A DNA stretch of 20,066 nucleotides from a virus: the IMG/VR virus record IMGVR_UViG_3300040751_000904, positions 1 through 20,066 of that record. One strand, 5' to 3'. The position numbers and the translations under genes are program-made. The first letter of the stretch is position 1. The number at the start of each line of letters is the position of its first letter. Below, piece by piece: positions 576 through 20,066 of the stretch. The notes beneath the pieces are model-generated. The model was not told the DNA's origin, searched no databases, and worked only from the letters and a program-made list of their open reading frames with translations.

Positions 576-2486
576 TTACGGATACACAGTTGTTGACTGG
601 TAAATCCATGCTGTTCCGTTTGATTTATATGTCATCATTGTTCTTGCCGGAGTAAGAATAACATTACCGCTTGCTCCTCCTGCATTAAACACTACATCTT
701 GCACTACTGATTCGTTCTGTGTTCCGTTTGAGTCAACTGATATATAACTTACATTCTTAGCACTTTCGACATCTACACCTTCAACTGTTGCTCCTTCATA
801 TGACGTTGTGTGTATACGTGCTACTTTGTTAGCATTTAATGTTGCAGCAGGATATAAATCATCCAAATATGTAGCGACTGCATTTTGCAATGCTGTGCTA
901 GTACCTAATCCTGTAATGTCCATACTAAACACTACTGGATCTGTAGCAATTTCTTGGTCTACATACTCTTTTGTTGTAACCGTGCCTGCTGTAGATTCTG
1001 TTACACTCAACCGTGCTGCTTCTCTTGCACTAATTGCTTTACCCACACCAGTAATCTTTTGACTGTCAGTAATGTTAATGTCGGCGCCGCCAGTTATAGC
1101 AATACCATTTGTTGACGCAATAGCTATATCATTTGTAGAGCTAATTGTTTTGCCGTCAATTGCAATTTCATCAACTTGTAATTGTGTTAGTGTACCAATA
1201 CGGTCTAGATCAAGTGCCTTAGTAACATTCACTAAGCTGTTGTTTGTAAGTTTATCTATGCCGCCGATTTTGTAACTCGAAGTATTATTTAATAAGTCAA
1301 AGTTTACGTTTGAAGTGAATGCATTTGTAGCAATTTTCCAAAGTATGTCTTTACTACCTGCGCTACTATTAACTTGTATACCTGAACTGTCTGCTTGTGC
1401 ATCAGTAAGTTCTGTACTATCATTTAGTACACCAATTTCGATAATTTTATCTTCAACTCTTAGAGTTTGTACATCTAATGCAACTCTGTCGCCTTCAACA
1501 ATTAAATCACCAGTTACTCTTAGATCGCCTTCAACATCTAGTGTATATTCTGGCAATCTATTAGTTGTAAATATACCAACTCGTGCAGTACTTGCATCTA
1601 CATAAATTGCATCAACTGTAATACTACCAAAAGATGACGATTTAACACGCAAACTTAAATCGTGATCAGTAAGTTGGTTTTCAATATAAAATCTAGGACC
1701 AACAACTTTTTGTACGTTATTTTGTGATAGACCAATTGTTAAACCACCTGAGTTTTGAATTGTTAATGTACCAGTTGTAATACCGTTTGCTGTTGATGGA
1801 AGGAAACTGTCAGCTGTTCTAACTACGCCGCCTGCTGTAACAAGTGCGTTTGCTGAATCTGCAATGCCCCTATATTTAAAGTTAGCAGTATCAATTATGT
1901 TGTATCCTACACGAATAATACCGTTAGGATTGGATACTGTAACAAGACCTAAAATTCTCTGTGCATATTGCGGCGTGAATTCAATATTACTAATCACTGC
2001 CGAAAGCGTGCCGCCTACATATAAGTAGACAACTGTACGTGATCTACTTTGAGAGTCTAATATACTGCCGATTTCAAATCCACTCTTGCCTTGTGATTCT
2101 GTGTATTGCGGACCCATTAGCATTAAATCAGTGCCATCAAATGCGTATACTTGATTGTTTAAGTTGTCTATCCACAAATCGCCTGCAACCATTTGCGGAC
2201 GAGTATTTTGTACTATCGGGCCGCCGCTTGATTTCCAAACTGCACCATTGTATACTTTTAAACGTTGGTCTGCACTATCCCACCAAGTTTGCCCTGTTAA
2301 AGGATTACTCGGAGCAGCAGTATTACTAAAATTTTCTAATAATTTAATAAAGTTTTCGTTAAAAAATTCTCCGTATCCTGTATAGTTTCTTCCTACTAGC
2401 ACAAGGTTAGTACTAGTTGTGTCAATCTGCCCGTCAATTAAGTCTGTTAGCAGTGTGCCGTCTGTCTTGTTTAATTGATAGCTCAT
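576..2486 (-). CDS. Tail fibre-like structural protein, 636 aa, paralogue without a collar domain
   Basis: Likely a virion fibre or adhesin. Residues 32-126 form the shared N-terminal domain: GYGE and NENF..LLENF, then GQTWWDS...LKVYNG..W and GDLWIDN...VYAFDG ending in LMGPQ. Residues about 205-320 still align with the 684-residue neighbour (SANALV..GGVV.TADSFLP, then G.TIG, then LPEYTLDVEGD). Beyond that the two part. This protein continues with repeated short beta-type segments (DLRVTGDLIVEG, then VEDKIIEIGVLND at about 344-356) and ends in a different tip (about 518-636), including LTPARTMMTYKSNGTAW near the C-terminus, a pattern I associate with marine phage fibres. It has no cysteine, no signal peptide and no membrane segment. 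The start follows the previous stop by one base and has GGAG six bases upstream. The tip's target is unknown; an uncharacterised structural protein rather than a true fibre is the alternative. Confidence 0.87.
   Translation of the reverse strand: MSYQLNKTDGTLLTDLIDGQIDTTSTNLVLVGRNYTGYGEFFNENFIKLLENFSNTAAPSNPLTGQTWWDSADQRLKVYNGAVWKSSGGPIVQNTRPQMVAGDLWIDNLNNQVYAFDGTDLMLMGPQYTESQGKSGFEIGSILDSQSRSRTVVYLYVGGTLSAVISNIEFTPQYAQRILGLVTVSNPNGIIRVGYNIIDTANFKYRGIADSANALVTAGGVVRTADSFLPSTANGITTGTLTIQNSGGLTIGLSQNNVQKVVGPRFYIENQLTDHDLSLRVKSSSFGSITVDAIYVDASTARVGIFTTNRLPEYTLDVEGDLRVTGDLIVEGDRVALDVQTLRVEDKIIEIGVLNDSTELTDAQADSSGIQVNSSAGSKDILWKIATNAFTSNVNFDLLNNTSSYKIGGIDKLTNNSLVNVTKALDLDRIGTLTQLQVDEIAIDGKTISSTNDIAIASTNGIAITGGADINITDSQKITGVGKAISAREAARLSVTESTAGTVTTKEYVDQEIATDPVVFSMDITGLGTSTALQNAVATYLDDLYPAATLNANKVARIHTTSYEGATVEGVDVESAKNVSYISVDSNGTQNESVVQDVVFNAGGASGNVILTPARTMMTYKSNGTAWIYQSTTVYP
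2109..2381 (-). other. Shared fibre N-terminal domain, copy 2
   Basis: Residues about 36-126 of the 636-residue protein. GYGE..NENF..LLENF precedes the GxxW repeats GQTWWDS...YNG and GDLWIDN...FDG. It is paralogous to 160-447 and 4147-4446. Confidence 0.85.
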
Positions 2487-2487
2487 T

Positions 2488-4548: not shown

Positions 4549-4554
4549 CTCCTT
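4549..4554 (-). promoter_or_regulatory. Strong ribosome binding site AAGGAG overlapping a stop codon
   Basis: The minus strand reads TAAGGAG, TAAAAT, ATG. The TAA stop of the 200-residue gene shares two bases with AAGGAG, six bases before the collar-fibre ATG. It is the best Shine-Dalgarno match in the window and implies coupled translation. Confidence 0.85.
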
Positions 4555-5155
4555 ATCCTGCTAAACTTTGTACACGCACTGTGTAGTCGATTTGAATCAA
4601 ACGGTTGAGCGACTTTTGTACTGGGTGGAAGATAACATGCGTAATTAATTTACCTGTGCCGCTTGTGCTATAACTACGTAATCCTAATTCATCAAAAACA
4701 TATGCATTGTCTGTTGAGCTAGCAGTGTCAAATGCATCCTGTCCGTTTGGCTCACCATAATCTAACAAGCAACTTACTACAATATCAGTATAGTTAGTAC
4801 CACTTACATGACGTGTTTCTAACTTGTTTCTTACTGGATCAGTATTGTTTACACTTCTGTCATCAACAACTTTAGTATAGGTTTGGTTGTACAGACTTGC
4901 ATTTGTTCCTGTGCTATTTGGTGTTAAGTACGTAATGATTCCAGTAGGATCAACACTAGTTCCGCCGTTACCAAAACTCATTTCGTATATAAAGCCTTGA
5001 CCGGCATTTGATAAACTTTCTGCTAAAGCAATACTCATATTTTCATAGTGAATTGCATTGCGCTTGTCAATATATACCTTTTGTGATTCAGGATCAAATA
5101 TCTTAATATGTCCTTGAATCAGTACCCCGTTTGTGTCTTGCATGTTATCGCTCAT
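4553..5155 (-). CDS. Conserved marine T4-like phage virion-type protein, 200 aa, function unknown
   Basis: A soluble 200-residue protein with no signal peptide or membrane segment. Notable segments are GHIKIFDPESQKVYIDKRNA (about 15-34), IHYENM (35-40), GFIYEMSFGNGGTSVDPTG (about 54-72), TYTKVVDD (92-99), VSCLLDYGEPNG (127-138), VFDELGL (153-159) and ITHVIFHPVQKSLNRLIQID (171-190). I recognise this as a family common in marine T4-like phages near tail and fibre genes, but that is memory of the pattern and no role is known to me. Its place between the giant structural gene and the collar fibre suggests a baseplate or fibre-attachment component. The start has AGGA eight bases upstream, and a NATAAATA box sits in the 21-bp gap and preceding stop region. 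Gene reality is very likely; the role is open. Confidence 0.85.
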   Translation of the reverse strand: MSDNMQDTNGVLIQGHIKIFDPESQKVYIDKRNAIHYENMSIALAESLSNAGQGFIYEMSFGNGGTSVDPTGIITYLTPNSTGTNASLYNQTYTKVVDDRSVNNTDPVRNKLETRHVSGTNYTDIVVSCLLDYGEPNGQDAFDTASSTDNAYVFDELGLRSYSTSGTGKLITHVIFHPVQKSLNRLIQIDYTVRVQSLAG

Positions 5156-5173: not shown

Positions 5174-5181
5174 TATTTATT
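5174..5181 (-). promoter_or_regulatory. Candidate T4-like late promoter box AATAAATA
   Basis: The minus strand reads AATAAATA across the TAA stop of the giant gene, ending 18 bases before the ATG of the 200-residue gene. It is one base from TATAAATA and fits NATAAATA. If active, it would let the 200-residue protein and the fibres be transcribed independently of the roughly 15-kb giant gene. Confidence 0.45.
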
Positions 5182-8100
5182 CAGGTAGCTCAGATGTAGC
5201 TGCACGTAAGAATCTTGCGATTCCATTTTCTGTATCTCCTAGTGTTGTACCTTCATTAGTCCAACTTTGGCCAACTTTCTTAACAACTGTTACTCGTGTA
5301 TCTTTTGCAGGAGCATCAAGTAATGTAATTTCATTTGTATCTGCGTCAAATGTAAAGTCTGCTGCAACTGTAGTATCGCCTTCTGAACTATCTAATGCTA
5401 CTGTAGGATCAAATACATCTAGTGGTGTTTTACGCAAGCGCACACCGCCTACAAACACTTCAATCTCATTAATCGATGCTACTGGATAGCCAATCTCAAA
5501 CGTTGCTGTAAGGCCGTCTGCGGTAGTGTTATACACTAGTGTTCTGTCTTTATACGGAACAGTTTTACTTATGTTTTGATCAAACACTTTTGTATCTGTT
5601 GCATGTGTATCTTTAACACCAGTGCCTAATGTACCTCTGCGTAGTTGACGTAGCGTATTTTCTTCTTTTACAAAGTATTCAATACGTTCGCCTTCGATAA
5701 AGATTACGCCTGGTAAGTTTTGTCCTTTGTTTGGTACTGACAATTCGCTTGCATTATCAAGTTCAATTCTTAAATCATAATAATTTAATGGCTGTGCTAA
5801 TTTAGCAGCAGATTTTTCAAGACGTTTAAAGTGCGTTCTGTTTAACATATCTTTGAACTGTCTGTATGCAAACTTAGGTGTACTTACAGGCGCAGTAAAG
5901 TGAATAATATCAATTACATCATTTGCTTCAGGATGCCTAACAAGTTGCACTTTTAACTTATCATCAGTTACATAATAATCTACACTTGGTGATAACAATT
6001 CGTTGTTAACACTTACCCATACGTATTGTGCATCAACAGCAGATTTACGCAGTTTAATTTCTCCAACTGTTAACCTGTTATATGTAATATAATCAACATC
6101 TTCAGGTATTAGCGTAGTTCTTGAAACAACGTCATAATTAATGCGTTCTAGGCCTAATAAGTTGTGATTGGTAAATTGTATTACTTCAACAACTGCTCCG
6201 TTAACAGGCGCAGTGTCTAAAGTAACTGTGGTTCCATTAATTCGGTAGTCGCCATCTGTAATTACATATATTTCAAGTAAGTCACCCGGAGCTCCTACTT
6301 CATCTGCTAAGGTAATACTACTATTTGCAATTTCAAAACGCCATTGTAGCGGAGTATTAATTGCAGTCCCATTTAGGAATACTTTAAGATCTGCAACATC
6401 TAAACTACCTGCTGGCATTTGGAATATCTCTAATGGATATTCTCTTTGACTGTTTTCAGGAATTGTATACTGGACATTGTATCCTGCATTTAATATTTTG
6501 TTATCAACTTTAACAATTACATTGTGCTCTGACGGAATAGCATACAGTGGCGCATTTGCTAATGTAAACACTGCATTAGTGCCGTTGCCAGTAAATGTAT
6601 CTTTAGTAATTTGACTATAATTAACTTGCTCATTTGCTGAGAATACAGTATAATTAATTATTGCGTCTTCAACGACTACTTCTTCAAATCTAATAACAGT
6701 CTTAGGTCCAGTTTCTGATTTAAATGCGACAACTGTTTGTTGCACACCATTAATACTTGCATATACACTTGCATTTGTTTCCCAATCAACAATTGTTTCG
6801 AATTCAGTAGTTGAACCATCGCCAACAAGCTGTCCAAAGTCTAATATATTTTGTGTTCCTTGTGCAACTGTTACAATATTGAGTTCTGCTCCTAGTGTTG
6901 CAGAATTTAATGTTACAGTGTTAGCTGCCCAGTTAATAGTATACTCAGTCTGCGGTAATATAACGTTAGCAACTTTTACAATAACTGCATCTTTGCTGCT
7001 TGGAGTAACACCCAAATCGTAAGTTAGTGCGCTATCCATAATATAGCTTTGACTGTTAATAACGCCTTGTCCTGCACTGTCTCTAGTGTAAACTTTAATG
7101 TCAAGAGTATCTAATACTTGTCCAGGAACAACTTCTTCAGGTCCTGCACTTGTAGTCGGAGTAACAAATCCGTCACCGTCTACAATAATTTCTTCTGCTG
7201 CAATGCCACGTGCTGATGTGTAAGCTAAATCGCCGCCGCTTAGTGCTGTATCATAACTCTCTAGATCAGGAATAACACTGCCGTCACTTGTAGTTTTTCT
7301 TACAACAAATACATCACCGTCATTAAGTTCAATACCTAAGTCTTGTACAAAAATTGTATCAGTTACGCCGTCCCCTGTAATACTATTTGTAATAGCGTTT
7401 ACATTAGTTGGTGTCCCTGCATCAAAGTTAGGATCGTCAATTCTTACACCGTTCTTATAAAGGTTATAAACAACACCATCCTCAAGCACTGCACTTAACG
7501 GTACTGCAATTGTTGAGCCATCTGCTGTAAATATTTCATCTTCAAATGTGTTATCAAACTCATCCCACTGATCAGTATACCATCCAGCTGTATCAAATCC
7601 AGCAGGGCCATCAAAGTCAAAACTACGTACTTCGACGCCGCCGTAATCTACACCAGTCATTAACTGTGCTAAGTCTTTACCGTACATTCCTGCAATTGGA
7701 TTGTATGCAAATTTAATTCTGTCTTCAGCATTTAACATACTTAGAGGAATATTATATTCAACACGTATTATTGCATTTAACTTTGGCGGAGTTGCAAATA
7801 ATATTTTGCCTTGTTCTCTTGCATAACTCTTGTCTAAGTTTTCAATATTTTCATATGTATATTTGCTACGCAACTGTAGAATATTGTCTACATATACACT
7901 AACTTTCTTAAGGGCTAGATCCATTGGCCATTCTAGGAAGAATCGATTTTCAAATCCTGTGCCTGTAAATGTTTCTGTTTTGGCTAATGTATCAAACGTA
8001 AATGTTCCGCTAGTTCTGTCAAACTTGATTTTAACCCTTGGGCTTCTTACAACGCCGTTTCCTAATATTGCTGTCGCTTTTGCAGGAGTTCCAGTTTCTA

Positions 8101-11100
8101 ATTGCGAACCTGAGATTACAACAGTCGGAGCACTAGTGTATCCGCTACCAGGATTAGTAACTTTAATACTAGTAATTTTTCCATATCCTAAATATGCCTT
8201 AGCAGTTGCACCTGTGCCGCCGCCGCCTATTAGAGTAACAATTGGTTCAAACGTAAATCCTGAGCCGCTGTTTCTAATTTTAACTTCATTTATTTTATAT
8301 CCAATATTATCTTTCCAATTTTTACGTGGATACACAGATGTGTCAAAGGTTTCATCAACAATTTCTCCATCTACTATTTTAGCGTTACTTGCTTCAAACG
8401 TCTTGTTAACATTGTTGTAGGTAGGCGGCAAATCAAAGTCACTAATAGAAGTATTAGTCGAGTCTATAGCTGTATACTGGCTTACAAATTCTCTTATCTT
8501 TGTTGAATATGGTTTAAATTCTTCAACAAACTTTTTATAGCTTGTTAGATTATCATTATTAAATGTTATATCTTGTTGACTTAGTGATTCTCTATTATGT
8601 TTTGCTTTTACAAAACTAGTTTTAAACATCCAATCAACTGACTGTTGCTCTGACATTACATAACGTAATGCAGCCATAAACAATTGATTGTATTCAGTTG
8701 CTAGTTCACCGACAAAAATATTATCTCTAATAGTTTCAAGTATAATTCTCAATTCAACACTTGGATTATTGTCGTAAAAATTGCTATCAAAACTACGGTT
8801 ATCAAATCCTACAGTATTCTTTGAATAATCATATAATAAATCTTTAAATTGTATAGTGCCGTTTTCTCGACCAATTGTATTATAATTAATTGTATAGTCT
8901 TCGCTGTCTTGATTGTCTATTTTTTGTAGAAGTAGCCAGCCGCCAGTACCTACATTTTCAATTTTAACAATGTCTCCTATATTGTCATCTAAACTCGGTA
9001 GTAAATAAGATCCCTGAATTGTATCAGTAATATTAGTGAACTGATTAAACCCGTCTGCATACCAATCTACATAGTCCCAATATAAATCTACATTATAGCT
9101 CTGTAGCTTTCTTCTATACCAAGATGATTCTGTTCCATCCCAAGAATACAATGCCCATTTGTTTTGTATATTGCTATCTGAATTAACTAATACAGTAAAC
9201 GGTCTAACAGTTATTGAAGTTGCACTGTTATACCCACTGCCCGCGTTAGTAATATCTACACTTATAATTTGACCTAAATTGTTAATATTTACATTAAATT
9301 CTGCACCTTTTCCTTCACCGTTAATTTTAAAACTAGGAGCAACTTTGTAGCCTCGGCCTGCATCTGTGATATTAACTCTAGAAATTCTGCCATTAGTAAT
9401 GATAGGAGTTAATATTGCTGGCGAAACTTTATTTGTACTAACAAACGTAAGTTCTGATAATGTGTCAATTGCAGTATCATATTCTTGAGATATTAGTGTA
9501 GGAACTTCGTCTTTAATACTTAATTTTGAAATATCATATTCGTCTACTATAAGATTTTCAGAAAGTTTTAGATTTATTCTCTCAATAGTTTGTTTCAGTG
9601 CTTCAAATCTATTAACAAACATACTTTGTCTTGGGCGATTTTGTACGCCATAACGATTTTTAACAGTAATTGTCGGATCTGGAACAATTCTATTATTATC
9701 ATCAAAGCCAATTAAACTATCAAACCATTTACGCTCAATATCAGGATCAGGTCTACTTGTGTTTAGTCCATCTGATATTAATTTATACTGACTATGTAAG
9801 TTTTGTGTTTTCTTTGGACCTGTTGAATATTTAATGTTTAGCACTAAATCATTATTATCAATAAAGGTATCAAAATTGTTAAGCACAAATTTATTGCTAG
9901 ATAGCAAACTTAAGAACGGATATCCTTGTGTTCTAGGATTTTCAATTAGTGCTGCAATATCACGTATACTTAGTCTTCTATTTTCCATTACAGGAACTGT
10001 AACTTTATTAACTACCCAGAAGTAATACTTATTACCAAATGTTTTGCTTACTTCATCGTATGTAATTTTAGTTGAATATTTTGTATCGCCATACAAACTT
10101 GTGCCACTGATCTTAGCTGCTATACCATCCGGCGTATCTGCAATGCTATCCCATATACTAGGGATAAAGTTACTCTCAACCCACTCAAATACATCAATTC
10201 TTGCTCCAGGTGTTAATTTGTTCCACGCATTTTTTTGGAAAGTTGTCGAACTTTGATATGCATATTCAAATTTTGCACTATTAATATTCCACCACACTTG
10301 TCCTGTATGCTTATCTGTCCATGCTCTATTAGGATCTACTAAGCTATCCGCTGTATTGCCTGTATTATACACTGCCGGATCGAATGGCGTTTTGAATGTA
10401 ATCTCTTGATCAGCAGGACCTGCTATTTTTCCTTGTACAGGATCAATATAATCAATATAACTCACAATTCTATTTTCACGCTTGTTGTATAAGAAAGCGC
10501 CTCGAATATTATCAACATCAACTGGAGTAATACCTTCGCTAATAACCTTCCATGCAAATGTATTTTTATTTTTTCTAAAGTCTAGTAATTGTCCCTTTGT
10601 ACTATTATTAACTTGATCTGGCATACCAATATAAACGTGGTTACCATTAGTATAAATGTTTTCGCCAAATGTAGTTTGAGTTAAAGGATATCTAAACTGT
10701 TCTGAATATATTAACGAGTTGTTAATTGTTTCGTAAACGTATACAACGCCTTTGTCAAGTTTTATGTTTGCAAAATTTGTAAATCCATTATCAAAAGTAG
10801 TGTTAACTGTTGATACGTTAGAAGCATTATCTAACACATACGACGATAATACAGGATTATCGTCGTCGTCGATTCCTACTTGAGGCTGCAACTCTAATAA
10901 TGTACTATGAACATCAAAAATAGTCGGTATTGTCTGATCACCGTTTAAGCTTGATACTGCTAAGTTATCTGTGCCAAAATCTAAACCAAACCCAAAACCT
11001 TCACTTTCCTCATTTTGTGGCGGTGTTAGTGTTTGATTAGCAATTCTAGTTATACCGTCAGTATCCAACAATCCAAATTTTCCATCTGCTTGTTGAGTAT

Positions 11101-14100
11101 AAATGTACACAACACCTTGATTAATTTTGTTAGTGTCTACTAACATTGAACTAACTGCAATTTGTGTGCCGTCAGGACTTAATGAAACTTTATCTGCCCA
11201 CGCTGTGACATTATCTGGTGCGGTAATTACTTGATCTAATTGAAACTTGTTACCAATTTCTCGATAAATTGCAATTTTTGTATTTACTGTACTATCTAAA
11301 TCTGCTTCATGTTGTTTACTTGTTACAATTAATACCTGTGCATCAGTACTAATATCAAAACTTTTACTAAATTCTAATATGTTTTCAGCTGGATCAAAAA
11401 CATCTTCGTTAAAGAAAGCATTTGCAGTTAAGTTTGGCAAGTATCCTAGGTAGTCAACATCTGTACTAATGCGTGTCCAAGAATTATTTGACACACTAGG
11501 AATTGTTGCTCCGACTGCTATATTAGTAGTAGCTTTCCATAGTTTGTTATCTTGTACAACAATACTGCCAGATTTGTAAGTATAACTATTATCAAAATCG
11601 CCACGATAATTTGAGTCTTTGCCATGCTGCCAGCTAATTTTGTTCCAATAAATTGGATCAAGAATAACATTTTGTGTCGCTGTTGTTGCTTTACGACAAA
11701 TGTAATAATCATCTTTATAGATAACAATATCACCTATTTGGTAAGCAGCTAATTGATATTCACCTTTAAAACTGTCTGTTGATTTAGTACCATGACGGAA
11801 AATTTCAATTGATCCAGGATGCACTCTGCGTTCTGTAGAATCGTCGCCTGGTAGAACAACACTGTCTGTGCCTACTAACAGTGTGTAATAGTTTCCAGTT
11901 TGTACAATTGCAACTTTGGATCCGAAATATCTATTAGCTGTGCGATATTCTGATATAAATGTATGTTGATATCTATAAGTTCCATCACGCAATCTTCTAT
12001 AGATTGCTACAGCACCTTCATTATTAAGTGATATTTCTGTTCCAAACTTGTCAGCAGGAATATTATAAATTTGTGTGTAATCTTTGTTTAAACTATAAGG
12101 TGGATTTGAAAAACGTTGTACACCGTCTTCTTGAGTTTCATCAAAGAACCAGTATTCTTCGTCAGTAATGGCAGGATTGTTAACTACTGGAAAATTAGTT
12201 GTACCAGCAGTAGGACCTGTTTCAAACACTATATCATTAGTAAATACAATTAACTTACCAACTAACGAATTGCCTAATACTATACTATTATTAATATCTG
12301 TTACAATTCCAATTGTACGATCAACATCAGTAACTCCGCCTCTAATATTAGGATTAACTGTATTATTATTACCAGACTTTCTGCGAATTTGGAATCGTCC
12401 AATATTTGATTGTTCTAGCCATTCTCCGCTTATTATTTTTAGATAAACTCTAATATTGTTAAATTTACGTTGCATAAACATTACTTCAGCACTACTAGTT
12501 GTAATACTAGTAAGTGCAAGGCCGCCTTGCCCGTCTCTTGGTATTTGAACATCTTCAACAATATCGCCTACTTGTGGTTCATATGCAAACCCTTCAAAAT
12601 CAAATTCTGTTAATTCGAAATCAATGTATCCATCCCATAAATCTACAATAGTTTGTTGTTTATTTAAAATATCATATGTAAAGCCTGCCCCTGCAACATC
12701 AACTACTCTGTTATCAAGATTATATAATCTAAATTCTGTAAGGGCGGGAACTGTTAAGTTGTCACTAAATGTCCTGCCTACTCGCGCTATCCATTTGTTA
12801 GTTAGCTGCTCTTCTTCGGTGCCGCCGATACCATCAGCACCAGATGGGTCTCCGCGATATGATAGATTACTAATAAAACTTGCTTGATTCTTATTAGTGA
12901 CATATGACCCAATTGCTCCTACAGTATCTTGGATATTATAATACTTATTTAGGTCTCTTAATTGTATTCCGGGGGTCAAAAGGTCAATATCTGTATTAGT
13001 TCTAATATCAGCATAAACTAATCCTCGACCTGGATCATAATATGTGCCGTTGTTTGAATATTCAAATCCGCTAATTAATGTGCCTGTTTCGTCTTTTTCG
13101 CCTGTGTTAATATACCAAAAGCCGTCAACTGCATCAGTTGTACTGTATGTTGATTCTTCAGTATAAAATCCTACAAAACTCAATTCGTTAATAAACAATT
13201 CGCCATTAATATTAAAGACACCGTTAGTATCCTTGACGTAAATAACTGCACTGTCTTTACGTGTTCCTACATAAAATACTTCAGCTGCGCCCGTATCAGT
13301 TGTAACAATGTCTCCTACTTCGGGCAGCGACACAAATGTATCAACAAAGAATATGTGATCAATTTTTTCGACAATTGTGTGACCTTGGCTTAACCATTCT
13401 GGAGTTATTTGAGTAATTTTATTATCAAACGGCAAGAATACATCTAATGTAGGATATGCATAACTACGTCTGTTCCAGAACAAATTAAGTGTATCACCTG
13501 CTGTTGTACCAATATACATATCTCTCGGCGCACGTACTAATAAATGAGTAATGTTACTGTTGTTTAAACCAGGATCGCCTGCAACTAATAAATTTAAAGT
13601 TGTACTATCAGCATCAGCAGAGGATGCAATATTTATATATGTATCAAATGTACTAAATGGTTGATTTGCAATTTCTGGCAGAATTTCTCTGTTTACTTTC
13701 CACAAACTTTCTCTATAACGTACAATATCATTTTTAATATATGTTGCATCAGGTTGGAAATCAAACGTGCTTAATCCTGTGCTAGCATCTGTTTTATATG
13801 CTAGTCGAGTCTTAACATTGCTTGCTTGCGGAATACCTACTACAAGATATTCACCATCTGGCGACACTGCAATACTTCTACCAAAGTCTGAATCAGTAAT
13901 ATCAAAATATTCTGCAGGACTATCTGTTAGTGTCCATTTTGAAGATGCTAAGTCATCTTCAAAAGACTCAGAGCTAGTATGTTGTTCTGTCGATATATAA
14001 TATTTTGGAATATTATTCGTAGTATATATTATTTTTGTATCTATTAGATAAAGAGTGTTTTCTTTCCAGCGCACTGCATCATCGAGGGTAATTTCTTGAT

Positions 14101-17100
14101 CTAGTATTAAATTGTTTTGTTCTCTAGTTCTGCGATATACCGAAACTTTACCGTTTAAGTCATTTGGCGATGATACAAAGACATTGTTATTATTTTTTGT
14201 TGCAGCAACACTATCACTAAACCCCTGATCAGTACTGTCATATAAAGACGGGTTAACAATATTTTGAGAATTTTCATAAACTGAAGTATTTTCTAATACG
14301 GCCCAATCACTGTTATAAGTGTCAATCCATAACTTTTGTTTACTATAAAGATCTTGACTTATTGCAGAATTAATTTCTAACACGCTACTGACTCGTATAT
14401 TTCTTAATTTAGAAACTGCAAACAGTTCGTCTTCAAAGTCTGTTATTTCGTTATCTAACGGAACTCTTATACGAGCAGTATTTAGATTAATACTATCAAC
14501 TTCATACAATCCATTTATTGAATACTGTGTTGCGCTGCGAATGCCAATATATTCTCCAACAGTGAATACACCGGTGGCCCATTTATCTAATGTTATTTCT
14601 ACTAACTGTAATCCGTTTACTGCTATTTCAGTTATATCAGAATTTATACTTAGCACATTTACATTAGCTCTGATTAGTTGCATAACTGTCCAAGATTTAT
14701 TGTCAGTATCAGTTATCCAAATTGTGTCGCCTAATCCAATTTGATTAGTGTCAACTGCTGAAAGATCAAGAAGATTATTAACAACATAATCAACGTCGTC
14801 CTCATTTGTATAACCAGAAGTTCTAATATATTCATTAGTTAATGTTTTAGTTGGAAGCGGTGCATGTGTATAATCTGCAGGTTTGTCAAAAACTTCATTT
14901 GGTAAAATTCTGTAAATCTTATCAAAGTTAGTTGCAGGCAATGTGTTTACAAGCTCAACTGCTTGGGGCGACTCTTGCATCTTTTCTTGTTGTAAGTTAT
15001 ACTCAACTTGCTGAATATCATCTACTGCACCATAGCGCCCAACTTGTATTGCCCATTCTTCATAAAAATCTAAGTTGTCAGCAGTATTGCCAAGCGCATC
15101 AAATAGTTTAGTAAACACATTCATTGTGCCTTTGTCTGCAATAGCACCACGATAGAATTTAAACTGACTTACATCGTCATTAATAATGTTAGCAAGGTAC
15201 TGACGTTTTTGATAACCTATTAAGTGTTGCGCCATCTTCTGCTGTTCAACATCAAAGCTGTCACTATCTAAATCATAAAAATCAGTAAACTGCGTAACTC
15301 TGTAATCAAAGTTAGTCATTAATTGAGATGTTGGTTTTTCGTTTAATTGGTACCAATTATTAGAATTAAAATTTTGCGAACCTGTAACATTAGCAGTTGC
15401 TACATAATAGTATTGTTTATATTTTACAATATCGCCAATTACATAATCTTTCCACTGTGACCAATCAGTAAATCTTGCATCATCGTATACAAATCCGGGA
15501 ATGTTTAATCCACCGTTCCAGTTATCTGATCTATATCCGTTAACACGTATTCTATCTTGTCTATATCCTGTTGTAGGATTGTAAATATTATCATTAAAGT
15601 CTGTTATATTATCTAATAATATAACATGTTCTTTTTGTACTAACGGCAGTGATGCATGATAAAGGCCTTCGTCTGTTCCAACAACTTCAATGCCAAAACT
15701 ATTTTGCTCTCTTAACAAACTATTAAATTCTGCATCTAAAAACAAACCGTCTGCTTTAAAAATGTTATAGCCGTAAAAATCATCTTTAATATTATCAACG
15801 ACATAGTAATCTCTAGCAAACTCTAATAGATTTGCGCCCGGGCTTATCGTAATTAGTGCACTTTCAGACCATCCTTGTGTTGTCCAAAACAAAAATTCTT
15901 TTGCGCTTTGACTCCAATTTTCAACAGTATTAGTGTCTTTAGATACTGCTTCAAAACTAAACCCAATTTCTTTTTGTCTTACACCGTAACCTAAAATAAA
16001 ATCAACAACTTCTTGTGCTGTGTTAATACGAGAACCGTACTGCAACTCTTTAAGTTGTGTAGTATCAAAATCTCTTTTAAACTTTGCAGTTTTTCCTCCA
16101 GTTAATGGCAATGCAGGAAGTTTAACTATATTATCAGTGTCAAATGTTCTACTACTAGTAAAAGAGTTAATAACTCTATAATATGCATTATTATGTAATA
16201 ATACTTCGCCACTTATATAAGATGTGTCGCTATCCCACTCAACTACTTTTTCAGAGATTCCGCCTACAGTTACAGTAGGTCCAGTTGATCCTGTATACGG
16301 TTCATAATATTCAAAATATGGCTTTTCTAAATTGTAGCCACGAATTACATATCCTAATTCAGTACGTTCTATAATAATGCCACTATAAATTGCTAATTCA
16401 TTGGGACTACTAGTATTTAAAAATACTTGATAGTTTTCTTGTGGTACAAAAATTCCGTCTTGGGTAAGTTCTTGTGTAGGTGAACGACTATCAAGTATTA
16501 AGTTAAACTTTTCTTTGCTAGTAAATCCTGCAATTTTAAGACCTATTTGATTAGTAATTGATTGTAGTTCTGTTTTATAACCATCATACACAGTTAATAT
16601 ATCGCTTGCAACGAGATTATAGATGTAGTTTACTAACCCTGATGTATTAGTACGTACAGATGATTCAAAAGTGTTAGGCAATTTTAAATCTTTAATAACA
16701 ATTGGCTTATTAGTTTCTGTATCAACCCACTGATTTGCTAAGTTTTTAGATGTTCTTGAAACATCAAACCCTAGTCCCATTGTTTTTGCAGGTTGATTTA
16801 ACGTCATTGCAGTTAATACAGCAAATGGATATTCTGAACTTCTGCGCCAGGCAGTTTCTACTGGAGAATAATCGCCAAATTTGAAATTTTTAGTTGAACT
16901 TGATAACTGAAAGTTTTTAACATATCTACTATCTAACGGAGATAACAGTTTACCAGTGCTATCAACTGGAATAAAGTTAGTTAAGCCAGGACGAACATAG
17001 TTTAAGTCAATTCTAGTATTAAGTGGATCGGCGATGCGGCCTTCTTCTAAATCTTTCCAAAGAACTAAATTGTCGCCAGTGTACGGAGCAGGACCATAAA

Positions 17101-20066
17101 CAGTATTCCACCATTTAGGCTTAGTTGTTAAACCTAACATTTCCCAAGGATGGCTATGCGGACGATCAGTATCAAACGCTTTTACATATATACTTCTCCA
17201 AAATCCAGGATTTTCATTATCGTTTGGTGAAGTTGTATCCGAATAATTAAATGACCAATTGTTGTTTCTATCATAAAATGTATTATTAGTGTATGATTGA
17301 TTATTTAAGTTTTGCTGTATCCACTGCGTAAAATTACCAAGCAGTGTATCATCAATTTCAGTTTTTGTAAATTCATTAATTCTAAATTCGCCGCCAATAA
17401 AACTATTAACATCCATTCTATCTGTAGAATATTCAGCTTTAATATTATTAAAAATTCTTTTTTCTAGTTCTAATAATAATTCGTCTCTAAAATCTTTGTA
17501 TGCTTTAACATAACTGCCATCATGACCTCTAATGAACGCAACACCAATCGGATATTCGTCTATTTCAATGTCGTCGTTGCCTGCAAGAGTTGCCCCTGTA
17601 GTTGGCATATAGAATAGTTTATTCATTCCTGTAAATGTGTATGACTTTGATGTTGCGCCAGGGCCTGCTGCACTCTTAGTAGTGTACACAGGATAAAACC
17701 AACCTCTAGTACCAGTTGCACTATCTTCGCCGTATATCTTAAACGGACCAGTGGTGTTTGGTTCGATACCTTGTACAGTATCGTCAATTGTTAATTCAGG
17801 ATAATACTTAGGATATAAGCCTAGCTTTGTTGGTGTTGGTGGTATAAAACTACCGTCAGTAGTTGCATACTCGTGTATTTCAATTATATCATTTTGTACT
17901 TGTCCAGCACTAATTGAAACATATCCTGGAATATTAAAATTATAATCTTTAATATGTGTTAATTGTGTACCATTTAAATATACTAACACACTAGTCGAAC
18001 TTAACTCTTTTAAATTAAAACTATTAGTAATAGGATAATCGTTTGTTCTTGCATCTAAAACAGTATATTCAATTTTATTAGATGCTCTAGATGCAGTCAT
18101 ATCAGAAAAGTAAAATGGTTGTGACTTTAATTTATCTTTGTTAATTTCTCGAAGTATAAGATCTACGTGAGTTTTAGTAACACCGTCGTATCCTAAATTA
18201 GAAGCAGTATCTAAAAATGTTTTTTTAAATCTAGAATATTCTTGTTTAGAATATTTTAGTGCTTTTATAATATTATAACTTTTATTAGTTACGTGATATA
18301 ACGGTAAATTAATTGGTCCACTATGTTTTACAAATCTTTTTCCATACTTATCTAAATCACCTAAATCTCGTAAATTACTTGCTCCGAGATAATTTCCTGT
18401 ATATCCCGGAATATCTTCTAACATACTATCAACGTGTTCTATTACTTCGCCAAGGGTGAATTGATTAATATCGTCATTTAACGGATTACGTTCTAAATTA
18501 TATGGAAATTCATAGTATCCGTTAGAATTTTTTATAGTCTTACTATCAGTCTTAATTTTAATAATATCATCTACATCTAAATCTTTATTAAATTTAATAA
18601 TTGCATCTGCTTCAGTTTTATCAATTGTATAATCTGTAGTATATAATTGCAATTTATTATTAACAAAAACAACTACTTTTAGATCATTAATACTACTTGA
18701 GTTGTTATATACGTCAATTTTAAAATTATTGTTTTGAATATCTGTTGCAGCATACTCTTTTATAACATACTGTTTACTAATTGTAGGAGTACTACTAAAT
18801 CCATTTACATATGAAAAGTTTGTAAGAGAAGTATACTTTTTTAAATACCCATTATTAATCTGCTGTGTAAACAATTCAGTGTCTGTTTGATATGTAAATA
18901 TATCGCTTAATAGATTAAAATCAAATACAATATCTCCAGAATTATTAATAGATTTATAACTTAGTGCAAACCCTAATTCAGTATCTACTGTACCTTCTCC
19001 TTCGGCATAAGAAAATAACTTAGTTCCTTTAAATGTAGTCGAACCGTAATATTTTTCATCACTAAAGCTATTTCCATTAACATCGCAAACAGCAAACATA
19101 GGTGGTTGATTGCGTGTTGTTTTTTCTTGTGCTAAAATCCATTGATTGTTATGATAATGATAACTTTTACCTGCATTTTTTACACCCTGTGTAACTAATA
19201 CAGTTTCAAGATCAACCGGAGTAGTATCAGCAGTTTCTATTAAACTAATCTGACGATTGTTTCCAATTTTAACAAATTTTACTTGATAAATTTTACCACT
19301 TACTAATAGATCTGTATCTGCTGTAAATAAGATACGCATATTGTCAGCTAAATCGATACCGTCAATGTTATATCCAGACTGTCCTTCAATGACACTGAAA
19401 ACATCAGTTGTAAATGTATCAATTAAATCAACATCTTTTTTAGCTACTGCTCCAAAATTATTTAATTTTAACCCTGCTTCAAATTCGATAATTGGCCGTT
19501 TTGCACGAGTTAATTCGTCAACGTTTATAGGTAATTGATTTAATTCAAAACTTTTTATAATTACATCTTTATGATGCCATCTGTTATAACGACTCCAGGC
19601 ATTTCTATCAAGCGATGCTCTGTTGACAACAATATAATCTTTTTCACTTGCATATGCACTTGCATCACTAAATGGCAAGGTATCAAAATTATCGCTGTCA
19701 AACGCTATTTGTTTATTACTACTATATGCTGCTGGAATAATTAAATCTTGATCTTTAATTAAAGTTATTTTGGTACCAACTCCTTCAACATACCAGTCGT
19801 TAGTTTCGTATTCAACAGGTAACACATCTCCCTGGAATCTAATTTTCATTCCGTTAGAAAGTTCAACACCGTTTGCACTTAGATACGTTTTCTTGCCTAA
19901 AATTTCTTCTTCTACATTAAGAAATGCATTTTCTTCAATGTCATAAATTCTAAATTGTCCACTTGTATCTACAGCATTTTTACTAATATAAAATAATCTG
20001 TCAGGTGCGTTAAACGGAATAGTAAATTCAATTGTGCCTTTTTCAATGTATGCAACTGCAACTTCT
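5177..20066 (-). CDS. Giant multidomain virion structural protein, at least 4,962 aa (N-terminus outside window)
   Basis: One frame with no stop for 14,890 bases. The in-frame ATG at 19849 has no ribosome binding site, and 72 open codons precede it without another ATG, so this is the C-terminal part of a larger protein of well over 500 kDa. Domain order: conserved segments (NRASLDRNAWSRYNRW near 19.6 kb, FGDYSPVETAWRRSSEYPF near 16.85 kb, HLIGYQKRQYLANIINDD near 15.2 kb); CBM5/12-like modules; an FG-GAP_2-like propeller interrupted by more such modules (14.2-10.5 kb); RQSMFVNRFEALKQ near 9.6 kb; GSGY repeats; DWMFKTSFVKAKH near 8.6 kb; about eight beta-fibre modules; and GERIEYFV...RQLRRGTLGTG near 5.65 kb. 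I found two cysteines and no catalytic motif. I recall similar giant proteins in marine and rhizobial T4-like phages, unnamed. It probably forms or decorates a long tail structure contacting the host surface, which is inference. Confidence 0.9.
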   Translation of the reverse strand, partial: EVAVAYIEKGTIEFTIPFNAPDRLFYISKNAVDTSGQFRIYDIEENAFLNVEEEILGKKTYLSANGVELSNGMKIRFQGDVLPVEYETNDWYVEGVGTKITLIKDQDLIIPAAYSSNKQIAFDSDNFDTLPFSDASAYASEKDYIVVNRASLDRNAWSRYNRWHHKDVIIKSFELNQLPINVDELTRAKRPIIEFEAGLKLNNFGAVAKKDVDLIDTFTTDVFSVIEGQSGYNIDGIDLADNMRILFTADTDLLVSGKIYQVKFVKIGNNRQISLIETADTTPVDLETVLVTQGVKNAGKSYHYHNNQWILAQEKTTRNQPPMFAVCDVNGNSFSDEKYYGSTTFKGTKLFSYAEGEGTVDTELGFALSYKSINNSGDIVFDFNLLSDIFTYQTDTELFTQQINNGYLKKYTSLTNFSYVNGFSSTPTISKQYVIKEYAATDIQNNNFKIDVYNNSSSINDLKVVVFVNNKLQLYTTDYTIDKTEADAIIKFNKDLDVDDIIKIKTDSKTIKNSNGYYEFPYNLERNPLNDDINQFTLGEVIEHVDSMLEDIPGYTGNYLGASNLRDLGDLDKYGKRFVKHSGPINLPLYHVTNKSYNIIKALKYSKQEYSRFKKTFLDTASNLGYDGVTKTHVDLILREINKDKLKSQPFYFSDMTASRASNKIEYTVLDARTNDYPITNSFNLKELSSTSVLVYLNGTQLTHIKDYNFNIPGYVSISAGQVQNDIIEIHEYATTDGSFIPPTPTKLGLYPKYYPELTIDDTVQGIEPNTTGPFKIYGEDSATGTRGWFYPVYTTKSAAGPGATSKSYTFTGMNKLFYMPTTGATLAGNDDIEIDEYPIGVAFIRGHDGSYVKAYKDFRDELLLELEKRIFNNIKAEYSTDRMDVNSFIGGEFRINEFTKTEIDDTLLGNFTQWIQQNLNNQSYTNNTFYDRNNNWSFNYSDTTSPNDNENPGFWRSIYVKAFDTDRPHSHPWEMLGLTTKPKWWNTVYGPAPYTGDNLVLWKDLEEGRIADPLNTRIDLNYVRPGLTNFIPVDSTGKLLSPLDSRYVKNFQLSSSTKNFKFGDYSPVETAWRRSSEYPFAVLTAMTLNQPAKTMGLGFDVSRTSKNLANQWVDTETNKPIVIKDLKLPNTFESSVRTNTSGLVNYIYNLVASDILTVYDGYKTELQSITNQIGLKIAGFTSKEKFNLILDSRSPTQELTQDGIFVPQENYQVFLNTSSPNELAIYSGIIIERTELGYVIRGYNLEKPYFEYYEPYTGSTGPTVTVGGISEKVVEWDSDTSYISGEVLLHNNAYYRVINSFTSSRTFDTDNIVKLPALPLTGGKTAKFKRDFDTTQLKELQYGSRINTAQEVVDFILGYGVRQKEIGFSFEAVSKDTNTVENWSQSAKEFLFWTTQGWSESALITISPGANLLEFARDYYVVDNIKDDFYGYNIFKADGLFLDAEFNSLLREQNSFGIEVVGTDEGLYHASLPLVQKEHVILLDNITDFNDNIYNPTTGYRQDRIRVNGYRSDNWNGGLNIPGFVYDDARFTDWSQWKDYVIGDIVKYKQYYYVATANVTGSQNFNSNNWYQLNEKPTSQLMTNFDYRVTQFTDFYDLDSDSFDVEQQKMAQHLIGYQKRQYLANIINDDVSQFKFYRGAIADKGTMNVFTKLFDALGNTADNLDFYEEWAIQVGRYGAVDDIQQVEYNLQQEKMQESPQAVELVNTLPATNFDKIYRILPNEVFDKPADYTHAPLPTKTLTNEYIRTSGYTNEDDVDYVVNNLLDLSAVDTNQIGLGDTIWITDTDNKSWTVMQLIRANVNVLSINSDITEIAVNGLQLVEITLDKWATGVFTVGEYIGIRSATQYSINGLYEVDSINLNTARIRVPLDNEITDFEDELFAVSKLRNIRVSSVLEINSAISQDLYSKQKLWIDTYNSDWAVLENTSVYENSQNIVNPSLYDSTDQGFSDSVAATKNNNNVFVSSPNDLNGKVSVYRRTREQNNLILDQEITLDDAVRWKENTLYLIDTKIIYTTNNIPKYYISTEQHTSSESFEDDLASSKWTLTDSPAEYFDITDSDFGRSIAVSPDGEYLVVGIPQASNVKTRLAYKTDASTGLSTFDFQPDATYIKNDIVRYRESLWKVNREILPEIANQPFSTFDTYINIASSADADSTTLNLLVAGDPGLNNSNITHLLVRAPRDMYIGTTAGDTLNLFWNRRSYAYPTLDVFLPFDNKITQITPEWLSQGHTIVEKIDHIFFVDTFVSLPEVGDIVTTDTGAAEVFYVGTRKDSAVIYVKDTNGVFNINGELFINELSFVGFYTEESTYSTTDAVDGFWYINTGEKDETGTLISGFEYSNNGTYYDPGRGLVYADIRTNTDIDLLTPGIQLRDLNKYYNIQDTVGAIGSYVTNKNQASFISNLSYRGDPSGADGIGGTEEEQLTNKWIARVGRTFSDNLTVPALTEFRLYNLDNRVVDVAGAGFTYDILNKQQTIVDLWDGYIDFELTEFDFEGFAYEPQVGDIVEDVQIPRDGQGGLALTSITTSSAEVMFMQRKFNNIRVYLKIISGEWLEQSNIGRFQIRRKSGNNNTVNPNIRGGVTDVDRTIGIVTDINNSIVLGNSLVGKLIVFTNDIVFETGPTAGTTNFPVVNNPAITDEEYWFFDETQEDGVQRFSNPPYSLNKDYTQIYNIPADKFGTEISLNNEGAVAIYRRLRDGTYRYQHTFISEYRTANRYFGSKVAIVQTGNYYTLLVGTDSVVLPGDDSTERRVHPGSIEIFRHGTKSTDSFKGEYQLAAYQIGDIVIYKDDYYICRKATTATQNVILDPIYWNKISWQHGKDSNYRGDFDNSYTYKSGSIVVQDNKLWKATTNIAVGATIPSVSNNSWTRISTDVDYLGYLPNLTANAFFNEDVFDPAENILEFSKSFDISTDAQVLIVTSKQHEADLDSTVNTKIAIYREIGNKFQLDQVITAPDNVTAWADKVSLSPDGTQIAVSSMLVDTNKINQGVVYIYTQQADGKFGLLDTDGITRIANQTLTPPQNEESEGFGFGLDFGTDNLAVSSLNGDQTIPTIFDVHSTLLELQPQVGIDDDDNPVLSSYVLDNASNVSTVNTTFDNGFTNFANIKLDKGVVYVYETINNSLIYSEQFRYPLTQTTFGENIYTNGNHVYIGMPDQVNNSTKGQLLDFRKNKNTFAWKVISEGITPVDVDNIRGAFLYNKRENRIVSYIDYIDPVQGKIAGPADQEITFKTPFDPAVYNTGNTADSLVDPNRAWTDKHTGQVWWNINSAKFEYAYQSSTTFQKNAWNKLTPGARIDVFEWVESNFIPSIWDSIADTPDGIAAKISGTSLYGDTKYSTKITYDEVSKTFGNKYYFWVVNKVTVPVMENRRLSIRDIAALIENPRTQGYPFLSLLSSNKFVLNNFDTFIDNNDLVLNIKYSTGPKKTQNLHSQYKLISDGLNTSRPDPDIERKWFDSLIGFDDNNRIVPDPTITVKNRYGVQNRPRQSMFVNRFEALKQTIERINLKLSENLIVDEYDISKLSIKDEVPTLISQEYDTAIDTLSELTFVSTNKVSPAILTPIITNGRISRVNITDAGRGYKVAPSFKINGEGKGAEFNVNINNLGQIISVDITNAGSGYNSATSITVRPFTVLVNSDSNIQNKWALYSWDGTESSWYRRKLQSYNVDLYWDYVDWYADGFNQFTNITDTIQGSYLLPSLDDNIGDIVKIENVGTGGWLLLQKIDNQDSEDYTINYNTIGRENGTIQFKDLLYDYSKNTVGFDNRSFDSNFYDNNPSVELRIILETIRDNIFVGELATEYNQLFMAALRYVMSEQQSVDWMFKTSFVKAKHNRESLSQQDITFNNDNLTSYKKFVEEFKPYSTKIREFVSQYTAIDSTNTSISDFDLPPTYNNVNKTFEASNAKIVDGEIVDETFDTSVYPRKNWKDNIGYKINEVKIRNSGSGFTFEPIVTLIGGGGTGATAKAYLGYGKITSIKVTNPGSGYTSAPTVVISGSQLETGTPAKATAILGNGVVRSPRVKIKFDRTSGTFTFDTLAKTETFTGTGFENRFFLEWPMDLALKKVSVYVDNILQLRSKYTYENIENLDKSYAREQGKILFATPPKLNAIIRVEYNIPLSMLNAEDRIKFAYNPIAGMYGKDLAQLMTGVDYGGVEVRSFDFDGPAGFDTAGWYTDQWDEFDNTFEDEIFTADGSTIAVPLSAVLEDGVVYNLYKNGVRIDDPNFDAGTPTNVNAITNSITGDGVTDTIFVQDLGIELNDGDVFVVRKTTSDGSVIPDLESYDTALSGGDLAYTSARGIAAEEIIVDGDGFVTPTTSAGPEEVVPGQVLDTLDIKVYTRDSAGQGVINSQSYIMDSALTYDLGVTPSSKDAVIVKVANVILPQTEYTINWAANTVTLNSATLGAELNIVTVAQGTQNILDFGQLVGDGSTTEFETIVDWETNASVYASINGVQQTVVAFKSETGPKTVIRFEEVVVEDAIINYTVFSANEQVNYSQITKDTFTGNGTNAVFTLANAPLYAIPSEHNVIVKVDNKILNAGYNVQYTIPENSQREYPLEIFQMPAGSLDVADLKVFLNGTAINTPLQWRFEIANSSITLADEVGAPGDLLEIYVITDGDYRINGTTVTLDTAPVNGAVVEVIQFTNHNLLGLERINYDVVSRTTLIPEDVDYITYNRLTVGEIKLRKSAVDAQYVWVSVNNELLSPSVDYYVTDDKLKVQLVRHPEANDVIDIIHFTAPVSTPKFAYRQFKDMLNRTHFKRLEKSAAKLAQPLNYYDLRIELDNASELSVPNKGQNLPGVIFIEGERIEYFVKEENTLRQLRRGTLGTGVKDTHATDTKVFDQNISKTVPYKDRTLVYNTTADGLTATFEIGYPVASINEIEVFVGGVRLRKTPLDVFDPTVALDSSEGDTTVAADFTFDADTNEITLLDAPAKDTRVTVVKKVGQSWTNEGTTLGDTENGIARFLRAATSELPE
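5265..7990 (-). repeat. C-terminal array of about eight beta-sandwich fibre modules
   Basis: Diverged modules of roughly 60-100 residues share the pattern F-T-G-x-G...F.L, then V.V.VNG..L....Y, then ITL..AP..GA.V.V. Clear members start with FTGTGFENRFFL (7745-7990), FTADGSTIAVPL (7430-7540), ITGDGVTDTIFV (7280-7390), LTYDLGVTP (6840-7045), LVGDGSTTEFE (6640-6835), FTGNGTNAVFTL (6160-6600, probably two fused units), one at 5900-6130, and the terminal TADGLTATFEIGYP unit (5265-5560). Two related modules lie far upstream at about 17800-18090 (VLVYLNGTQL) and 18535-18800 (VVVFVNNKLQL). The array is a likely rod or shaft, with boundaries approximate. Confidence 0.7.
8030..8300 (-). repeat. GSGY repeat pair A
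   Basis: Two tandem protein repeats: INEVKIRNSGSGFTFEPIVT followed by GGGGTGATAKA, then KITSIKVTNPGSGYTSAPTV followed by a similar Gly/Ala-rich strand. The pattern is [VI]-x-[VI]-x-N-x-G-S-G-[YF]-x-x-x-P, which I associate with phage structural proteins as a beta-rich spacer. Confidence 0.75.
9190..9390 (-). repeat. GSGY repeat pair B
   Basis: Two repeats of the same type about 0.9 kb upstream of pair A: RVNITDAGRGYKVAPSFKIN, then IISVDITNAGSGYNSATSIT. Pairs A and B flank the DWMFKTSF segment. Confidence 0.72.
10215..10310 (-). other. GxxW motif shared between the giant protein and the fibre N-domains
   Basis: The giant protein reads HTGQVWWNINSAKFEYAY followed by a downstream Trp, closely resembling GQTWWDSADQRLKVY and GQVWFDSGTSKLKFY of the fibre genes. 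It lies directly after the last propeller blade region. Confidence 0.55.
11470..11615 (-). other. CBM5/12-like aromatic module 6
   Basis: Between propeller blades. GDFDNSYTYKSGSIVVQDNK is followed by LWKATTN and a closing NNSWTRIS. The order Y..GS.V......LWKA......W is that of small chitin/cellulose-binding modules. Confidence 0.6.
11625..11765 (-). other. CBM5/12-like aromatic module 5
   Basis: YQLAAYQIGDIVIYKDDYYI, then CRKATTA, closing with IYWNKISW. It directly precedes module 6 in the protein. It contains one of the only two cysteines seen in the giant protein. Confidence 0.62.
12060..13635 (-). other. 1.6-kb insertion inside the propeller
   Basis: About 525 residues between blades 2 and 3. 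They include two segments of the same style, PEVGDIVTTDTGAAEVFYVG (near 13.3 kb) and PQVGDIVEDVQIPRDGQGG (near 12.55 kb), each followed by an alternating hydrophobic strand pattern (VIYVKDTNG and IRVYLKIISGEW). Between them is VDGFWYINTGE...YYDPGRGLVY. I cannot name a fold. It may be a separate beta domain projecting from the ring. Confidence 0.5.
13635..13770 (-). other. CBM5/12-like aromatic module 4
   Basis: FDFQPDATYIKNDIVRYRES, then LWKVNRE and PFSTFD. The Y..ND.VRY...LW core is clear; the terminal Trp is absent. It follows propeller blade 2. Confidence 0.52.
13925..14075 (-). other. CBM5/12-like aromatic module 3
   Basis: RWKENTLYLIDTKIIYTTNN, then YYISTEQHTSS, then SSKWTLTDSP. It lies between propeller blades 1 and 2. 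The core is W...T.Y......I.Y......YYI......W. Confidence 0.52.
15335..15475 (-). other. CBM5/12-like aromatic module 2
   Basis: DWSQWKDYVIGDIVKYKQYY, then YVATANV, closing with NNWYQLNE. It is the best match among the six modules to the W...Y..GD.V.Y...YY.A......W pattern. Confidence 0.68.
16110..16240 (-). other. CBM5/12-like aromatic module 1
   Basis: VVEWDSDTSYISGEVLLHNN, then AYYRVINSF. It starts with the W.....Y..G.V......YYRV core but lacks a clear closing Trp, so it may be degenerate. Confidence 0.55.

Follow-up and report, generated by a model that had tools for sequence, protein, structure and literature searches.

The stretch of DNA examined here (the window) comprises 20,066 bases of virus record IMGVR_UViG_3300040751_000904, from a marine virus infecting microbes. 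It encodes one giant virion protein, in which FG-GAP-type repeat units are separated from each other by modules resembling the carbohydrate-binding module (CBM) family 5/12. The question is whether these scattered units form a single beta-propeller, and what a ring decorated in this way may do in a phage particle. An earlier sequence-only reading had counted seven full units and a shortened one, and had supposed that they close into one ring from which the modules project. The models of relatives make it very probable that the region is a closed seven-bladed FG-GAP propeller, inserted into the giant protein and carrying modules on its loops. Residue i of the giant open reading frame (ORF) begins at nucleotide 20065 − 3(i − 1); handles such as L111 denote individual relatives.

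Closure and fold of the ring

Two relatives were modelled with AlphaFold2. One is L111, a compact relative (603 aa) with two CBM-like modules, for which a 66-sequence alignment (A3) was supplied; the other is L001, which is 77% identical to the window (1181 aa modelled). The L111 model is a closed seven-bladed ring of 7 × 4 strands, with a predicted local distance difference test score (pLDDT) of 87.8 and a predicted template modelling score (pTM) of 0.87. The L001 model also has 7 × 4 strands, its blades lying mostly at pLDDT 75–90 and the whole model at 62. When the models were compared with the PDB by Foldseek, integrin alpha chains were the best matches of both (best E-value, 2e-13, for L111), and VIA-align superposed L111 (model residues 18–555) on integrin alphaM over 345 residues with a Z-score of 33.0 and a root-mean-square deviation of 3.0. 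The 28 strands follow one another in order on both relatives, and the window aligns with them strand by strand; its blades were placed by mapping the L111 strands (Table 1).

The profile evidence agrees with the order of units that had been read from the letters. On the window itself, PF14312 scores 19.3 bits, below the curated cut-off of 23 bits; the same family matches 35 of the 37 close relatives (best E-value, 1.3e-12). Among individual relatives, it scores 25.4 bits in L001 and 39.7 in L107, and it exceeds the cut-off by far in the further relatives L111 (57) and L130 (62.5). When a unit model was derived from the undecorated L107 and L130 alone, it detected several blades of the window, in the right order and within the propeller region (best score, 25.1 bits), and none of 300 shuffles of the whole protein reached 8 bits against it. 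Blade 5 is the best FG-GAP match of the window. Moreover, the profiles of the bare and decorated groups align over blades 4–7 and the following scaffold with 100% probability (E-value, 3e-42). The count of units had to be revised, however: there are seven blades and no eighth unit. Since blade 2 is continuous in the relatives without the large nested block described below, the shortened unit completes blade 2 as its strands C and D, and an eight-unit ring was rejected.

What the ring shares with integrins is its fold and layout. The structural alignments show a sequence identity of only 10–19%, and a sequence search of the PDB with the whole giant gave no match; the search with the alignment of the propeller region returned only All3316 (7b5h), weakly and at a CBM-like stretch. 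The calcium-binding loop motif D-x-D-x-D-G was not found in the ring of the window and occurs in one of the 66 homologues. Because this integrin motif is missing, we do not call the ring an integrin.

The giant protein and the insertion site

The giant ORF is a real and conserved gene, as judged from the 46 relatives of the propeller region found in a tblastn-confirmed scan of IMG/VR and from full-length forms of 5.05–5.26 thousand residues. With the downstream segment of the scaffold as the query, another scan yielded at least 576 relatives. The protein has long stretches with ~25–27% identity to its homologue, the virion protein encoded after gp6 in RaK2-like and other jumbo phages (RaK2 ORF070, PA5oct gp355, Atu_ph07 gp180, CBB_236 and SCTP-2 gp140). 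In the relatives of the window, the gene immediately upstream of the giant encodes a gp6-type baseplate wedge subunit (phrog_10646 and phrog_219), and gp6 also precedes the homologues in RaK2, Atu_ph07, PA5oct and CBB. The record of PA5oct gp355 carries a mark of detection by electrospray tandem mass spectrometry (ESI-MS/MS), and CBB_236 was detected in virions by mass spectrometry (PMC5259590). The host of the ring is thus a giant protein beside the baseplate wedge gene and not a generic tail fibre. In T4, the gene order is gp6-gp7-gp8, and the giant, directly after gp6, occupies the gp7 position. As the order matches and sequence similarity to gp7 was not detected, we refer to it as the giant in the gp7 position and avoid the plain name gp7.

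In the profile of the giants, the scaffold on either side of residues ~1925–3184 continues in RaK2, PA5oct and SCTP-2. Between the two anchors, 1,259 residues are found in the window as compared with ~20 in RaK2; in SCTP-2, PA5oct and Atu_ph07, the site is occupied by other sequence. The segment best conserved with the jumbo phages (24–28% identity) is residues ~3184–3400. By this sequence comparison, the propeller is an insertion in one loop of a conserved scaffold, without a counterpart in the jumbo phages. As both ends have a W-x-V stretch, the borders of the propeller are known only to within ~10–20 residues.

A marine metagenome-assembled genome (MAG) includes a 335-kb contig with a related gene, which suggests jumbo-size genomes for this lineage; L135 (PBPT01000016, 335 kb, Neomarinimicrobiota MAG) is probably a misbinned jumbo phage contig of the lineage and may offer a broader view of the gene neighbourhood. 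In the C-terminal scaffold of the window, a Gly-Tyr-rich repeat at ~8098–8458 (residues ~3870–3990) matches phrog_460, annotated as 'head closure Hc2'. The repeat also occurs several times in Atu_ph07 gp180, in part where the propeller would sit. We read the match as a shared Gly-Tyr repeat and rejected a neck-protein identity.

Modules on the loops and the nested block

Over the whole giant, PF02839 scores 35.7 bits. The pair of CBM5/12 modules at residues 2764–2868 reaches 28.1 bits (cut-off, 26.2), so that the pair itself was correctly recognized; it had been placed after a fourth unit, and its members are instead located in the C3-D3 hairpin and the D3-A4 loop. The CBM in blade 2 of the window remains under the cut-off (16.8 bits), and relatives exceed the cut-off at that position. 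The module between blades 1 and 2 (D1-A2 loop) has no CBM match of its own in the window. Homologues of it were found in L060, L057, L072 and L069, and the Pfam CBM match of L072 (3.8e-7) falls exactly there, which bears out its earlier description as CBM-like. It is absent from the 45 nearest relatives of the window; with these homologues at hand, its being unique to the window was rejected. In profile comparisons, the modules are weakly similar to the chitin-binding domains of chitinases and deacetylases of known structure (E-values, 0.007–0.03). Two further CBM5/12-like modules are located on the scaffold outside the ring, at 15311–15466 and 16112–16258 (residues 1534–1585 and 1276–1304), the latter stretch of nucleotides containing the best single CBM stretch of the window.

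That the modules are loop insertions and not blade strands is evident from five relatives with almost bare rings (L107, L130, L110, L120 and L109). Their B2-C2 loop has 6–28 aa (~6 residues in L107 and L130), as against at least 60 aa in 60 of the 66 loci; the CBMs as integral strands of the blades were accordingly rejected. Neither outcome that counted against the sequence-only reading, a predicted fold lacking a propeller or CBM-like segments serving as blade strands, was seen. A bare propeller without CBM matches was also seen at giant residues ~2103–2582 of L137, a contig in a Rickettsiales MAG and a distant relative with 36% identity in the downstream scaffold.

Comparison of the relatives also reveals how blade 2 is built. 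In L111, L085 and L092, its B-C loop holds one CBM. In L102, L093 and L100, this CBM is interrupted ahead of its last strand, and in the group of the window the interruption is a block of ~530 residues, followed by the last strand of the CBM and then by strand C of the blade. The nesting is, from outside to inside, scaffold, propeller, CBM and block. As the shortened unit makes up the latter half of blade 2, the CBM formerly placed after that blade does exist there, but inside its B-C loop; the ~525-residue block assigned to the space between blades 2 and 3 actually lies within this CBM. The block has no PHROG match, and its pLDDT in the L001 model ranges from 22 to 87. In L109 and L123, non-CBM-like modules were found in the D3-A4 loop region, and this loop therefore accepts different domains.

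Table 1. Positions of the giant gene, its parts and two downstream genes in the window
Feature	Position	Strand	Remarks
Giant virion-protein ORF	5177..20065	-	4962 aa visible; 5′ end/N-terminal part beyond contig end
N-terminal scaffold	14282..20065	-	residues 1-1928; conserved with jumbo-phage giants
Propeller with all decorations	10526..14281	-	residues ~1929-3180; absent from RaK2, PA5oct, SCTP-2 scaffolds
Blade 1	14087..14233	-	residues 1945-1993; mapped strands 1952-1992
CBM-like module, D1-A2 loop	13898..14086	-	residues 1994-2056
Blade 2, strands A + B	13817..13891	-	residues 2059-2083; mapped strands 2064-2078
CBM5/12-like module, blade 2 B-C loop, first part	13670..13780	-	residues 2096-2132
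~530-residue block nested in blade-2 CBM	12086..13669	-	residues ~2133-2660
Last strand of interrupted CBM, YTQIYNIPA	12053..12085	-	residues 2661-2671; conserved W/Y-x-x-[IV]-x-[YV]-[IV]-P in relatives
Blade 2, strands C + D (EGAVAIYRR; the shortened unit)	11957..12016	-	residues 2684-2703
Blade 3, strands A-C	11783..11935	-	residues 2711-2761; mapped blade 3 overall 2717-2814
CBM5/12-like module, C3-D3 hairpin	11642..11776	-	residues 2764-2808; only large insert on opposite face
Blade 3, strand D	11624..11641	-	residues 2809-2814
CBM5/12-like module, D3-A4 loop	11462..11614	-	residues 2818-2868
Blade 4	11222..11380	-	residues 2896-2948
Blade 5	11027..11200	-	residues 2956-3013
Blade 6	10679..11002	-	residues 3022-3129, mapped 3027-3129; ~65-residue B6-C6 insert 3040-3104
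Blade 7	10535..10669	-	residues 3133-3177; mapped 3136-3177
C-terminal scaffold	5180..10525	-	residues 3181-4962
Conserved 200-aa protein, phrog_11259	4553..5155	-	downstream of giant
Tail collar/fibre protein	2488..4542	-	Phage Tail Collar domain

Collar-type and fibre-type genes come after the giant. Three consecutive downstream proteins (1–537, 576–2486 and 2488–4542) have a common N-terminal domain (phrog_15511/14394) and are apparently tandem paralogous fibre or collar proteins.

Position, turnover and possible role of the modules

The faces of the ring were assigned from the strand order, the B-C and D-A loops forming one blade edge and the A-B and C-D loops the other. In integrins, the B-C and D-A loops make up the ligand-binding face. 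Among the 66 loci, inserts of at least 30 residues occur in 7 of the 13 B-C and D-A loops and in 1 of the 14 A-B and C-D loops (Fisher p = 0.013, the loops not being independent observations). Because most of the large inserts are on one face, they are most naturally read as a projecting head of several modules, and the common platform foreseen in the sequence-only reading would hold for them, with one member of the CBM pair on the opposite face.

We somewhat favour the interpretation that the ring is an exchangeable adhesion platform at the baseplate. The ring would be held at the baseplate periphery, and its outward face would show exchangeable modules of a sugar-binding type, which may make weak, multivalent contacts with the host surface polysaccharide. 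Binding could then be retuned by plugging, unplugging or nesting modules in the loops. A possible parallel is the I domain, through whose insertion certain integrin alpha chains acquired ligands. The more far-reaching view, that we are dealing with a phage counterpart of the I-domain integrins, having on one face a plug-in site for glycan-binding or other modules that changes host attachment across an abundant aquatic jumbo-phage lineage, is tentative and on balance doubtful.

The distribution of the inserts over the faces also bears on the idea that the inserts are passive accretions, comparable to the Ig-like domains of phage structural proteins, with weak non-specific stickiness or none, in loops that tolerate insertion without disturbing the ring. 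The recurrence of CBM5/12-like modules at several sites of the giant, scaffold included, their nested insertion and their patchy presence fit this idea. Yet insertions tolerated at random should not be concentrated on one face, except if the opposite one is buried, and several of the CBM positions persist over divergent lineages; we regard passive accretion as distinctly improbable.

Turnover was followed on a tree built from the scaffold segments of 70 taxa, with jumbo phages as the outgroup. The four states of blade 2 (none, bare, CBM and block) require at least 7 changes, as against ~23 for shuffled labels, so that the state is inherited but labile. The bare rings are nested inside decorated clades and are thus probably due to loss, the root being distant; the bare ring as the ancestral state has no support. 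The distribution of the D1-A2 module is patchy. In pairwise comparisons among 23 close relatives, the identity was 81.8% for the blade strands and 79–82% for the scaffold, as compared with 74.7% for the short loops of the insert-bearing face, 69.6% for the D3-A4 CBM and 74.0% for the C3-D3 CBM; the D3-A4 CBM and the short same-face loops diverge faster than the blade strands or the scaffold.

These values also concern another explanation, in which the propeller is a docking hub that grips other tail parts (fibres, spikes or the adjacent wedge protein) by one face, the modules serving mainly to shape that interface. The gene lies between the gp6-type wedge gene and the collar and fibre genes, propellers commonly act as hubs between proteins, blades and scaffold are conserved to the same degree, and the jumbo relatives manage without the ring. 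A fixed interface is difficult to reconcile, however, with an insert content that varies among close relatives, with the existence of a bare ring, and with the fastest divergence being found in some short same-face loops and one CBM. Docking is therefore, in our estimation, unlikely, if the strongest of the competitors. An enzymatic ring that degrades polysaccharide on the host surface, anchored to its substrate by the CBMs, was also considered, since CBMs combined with a propeller are a common layout in glycan-active enzymes; the top fold matches being integrin alpha chains and not glycosidases, and the searches of Pfam and PHROGs giving no catalytic family, we give this explanation hardly any weight.

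Several points weigh against the adhesion platform. The C3-D3 CBM in the clade of the window sits on the opposite face; most relatives keep the block and the CBMs stably and only some change; and conservation of the blade-2 CBM, measured on its first part, matches that of the blades (81.5% among the 23 close relatives). With CBM5/12-like modules also present on the scaffold outside the ring, these modules may be generic spacers. We infer glycan binding by them, and we assume that the insert-bearing face points outward. Closure is taken from the models of the relatives, the ring of the window itself exceeding 1200 aa. The gp7 position is assigned from gene order alone: hhalign of the giant with T4 gp6, 7, 8, 9 and 10 gave no signal, although divergence could conceal a homology to gp7.

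Propellers in phage tails and FG-GAP proteins of viruses are already known, and the present arrangement is a variant of them. The integrin alpha chains with an I domain (alphaM, alphaX and alphaL) likewise have a seven-bladed FG-GAP ring, interrupted between blades 2 and 3 by an adhesion module (PMC10659397). The phage inserts are on loops of the same blade edge; they differ in being CBM-like, in occupying several loops, in belonging to a phage virion protein and in the lack of the calcium motif in the window. PMC4901313 describes propellers in the host-recognition proteins of phi11, PRD1 (P2) and phiKZ (gp131). Among these, gp131 resembles our case in having a seven-bladed propeller (PDB 4GBF) in a myophage baseplate, at its periphery, with a suggested role in receptor binding. 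By that description, the ring there is C-terminal, whereas ours is mid-scaffold and decorated. The receptor-binding protein of phi11 also contains a propeller platform; this host-recognition device is believed to read N-acetylglucosamine (GlcNAc), but it has five blades, forms a trimer, belongs to a siphophage and is not reported in the same source to carry inserted CBMs. For gp131, we know of no sequence shared with the giant.

Kelch-type proteins are described in CBB (PMC5259590). The viral FG-GAP proteins (of giant viruses, the 'Hemagglutinin' of Atu_ph07, a structural protein of cyanophage S-TIM5 and a UFOVP gene) have the same fold but are separate proteins or products of other genes, and insertion in the gp6-adjacent giant is not shown for them. 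The RaK2-like giants share the gene order, and the scaffold flanking the ring is orthologous in them, but they have no propeller. At the sensitivity of tblastn, isolated phages gave no ring, except three weak FG-GAP matches in other genes. A stand-alone FG-GAP propeller gene was observed on a freshwater phage contig (LR797314, L132; 5971–7392), and in Sinorhizobium phage Phosso (PV764938, L133) FG-GAP units occur in a gene of ~3,160 codons away from the gp6-adjacent giant. A literature search found no FG-GAP or integrin-type propeller in phage baseplates, which is weak evidence of absence because subscription journals were not covered; with the same incomplete coverage, it also found no gp6-adjacent giant that contains an FG-GAP ring bearing CBMs on the loops. 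The architecture, earlier thought to be undescribed, is to that extent new, its phage-propeller and I-domain parallels being known.

The giant in the gp7 position is the likely identity of long ORFs that are usually labelled merely 'virion structural protein'. The relatives offer a natural series, from no ring to a bare ring, a ring with a CBM and a ring with an interrupted CBM, which is testable with small recombinant proteins. If the proposal is true, a phage baseplate would contain an adhesion architecture of the integrin type, with binding domains inserted into it, and a large group of uncultured marine phages would diversify its attachment by exchanging loop domains on a fixed ring, without replacing whole tail fibres.

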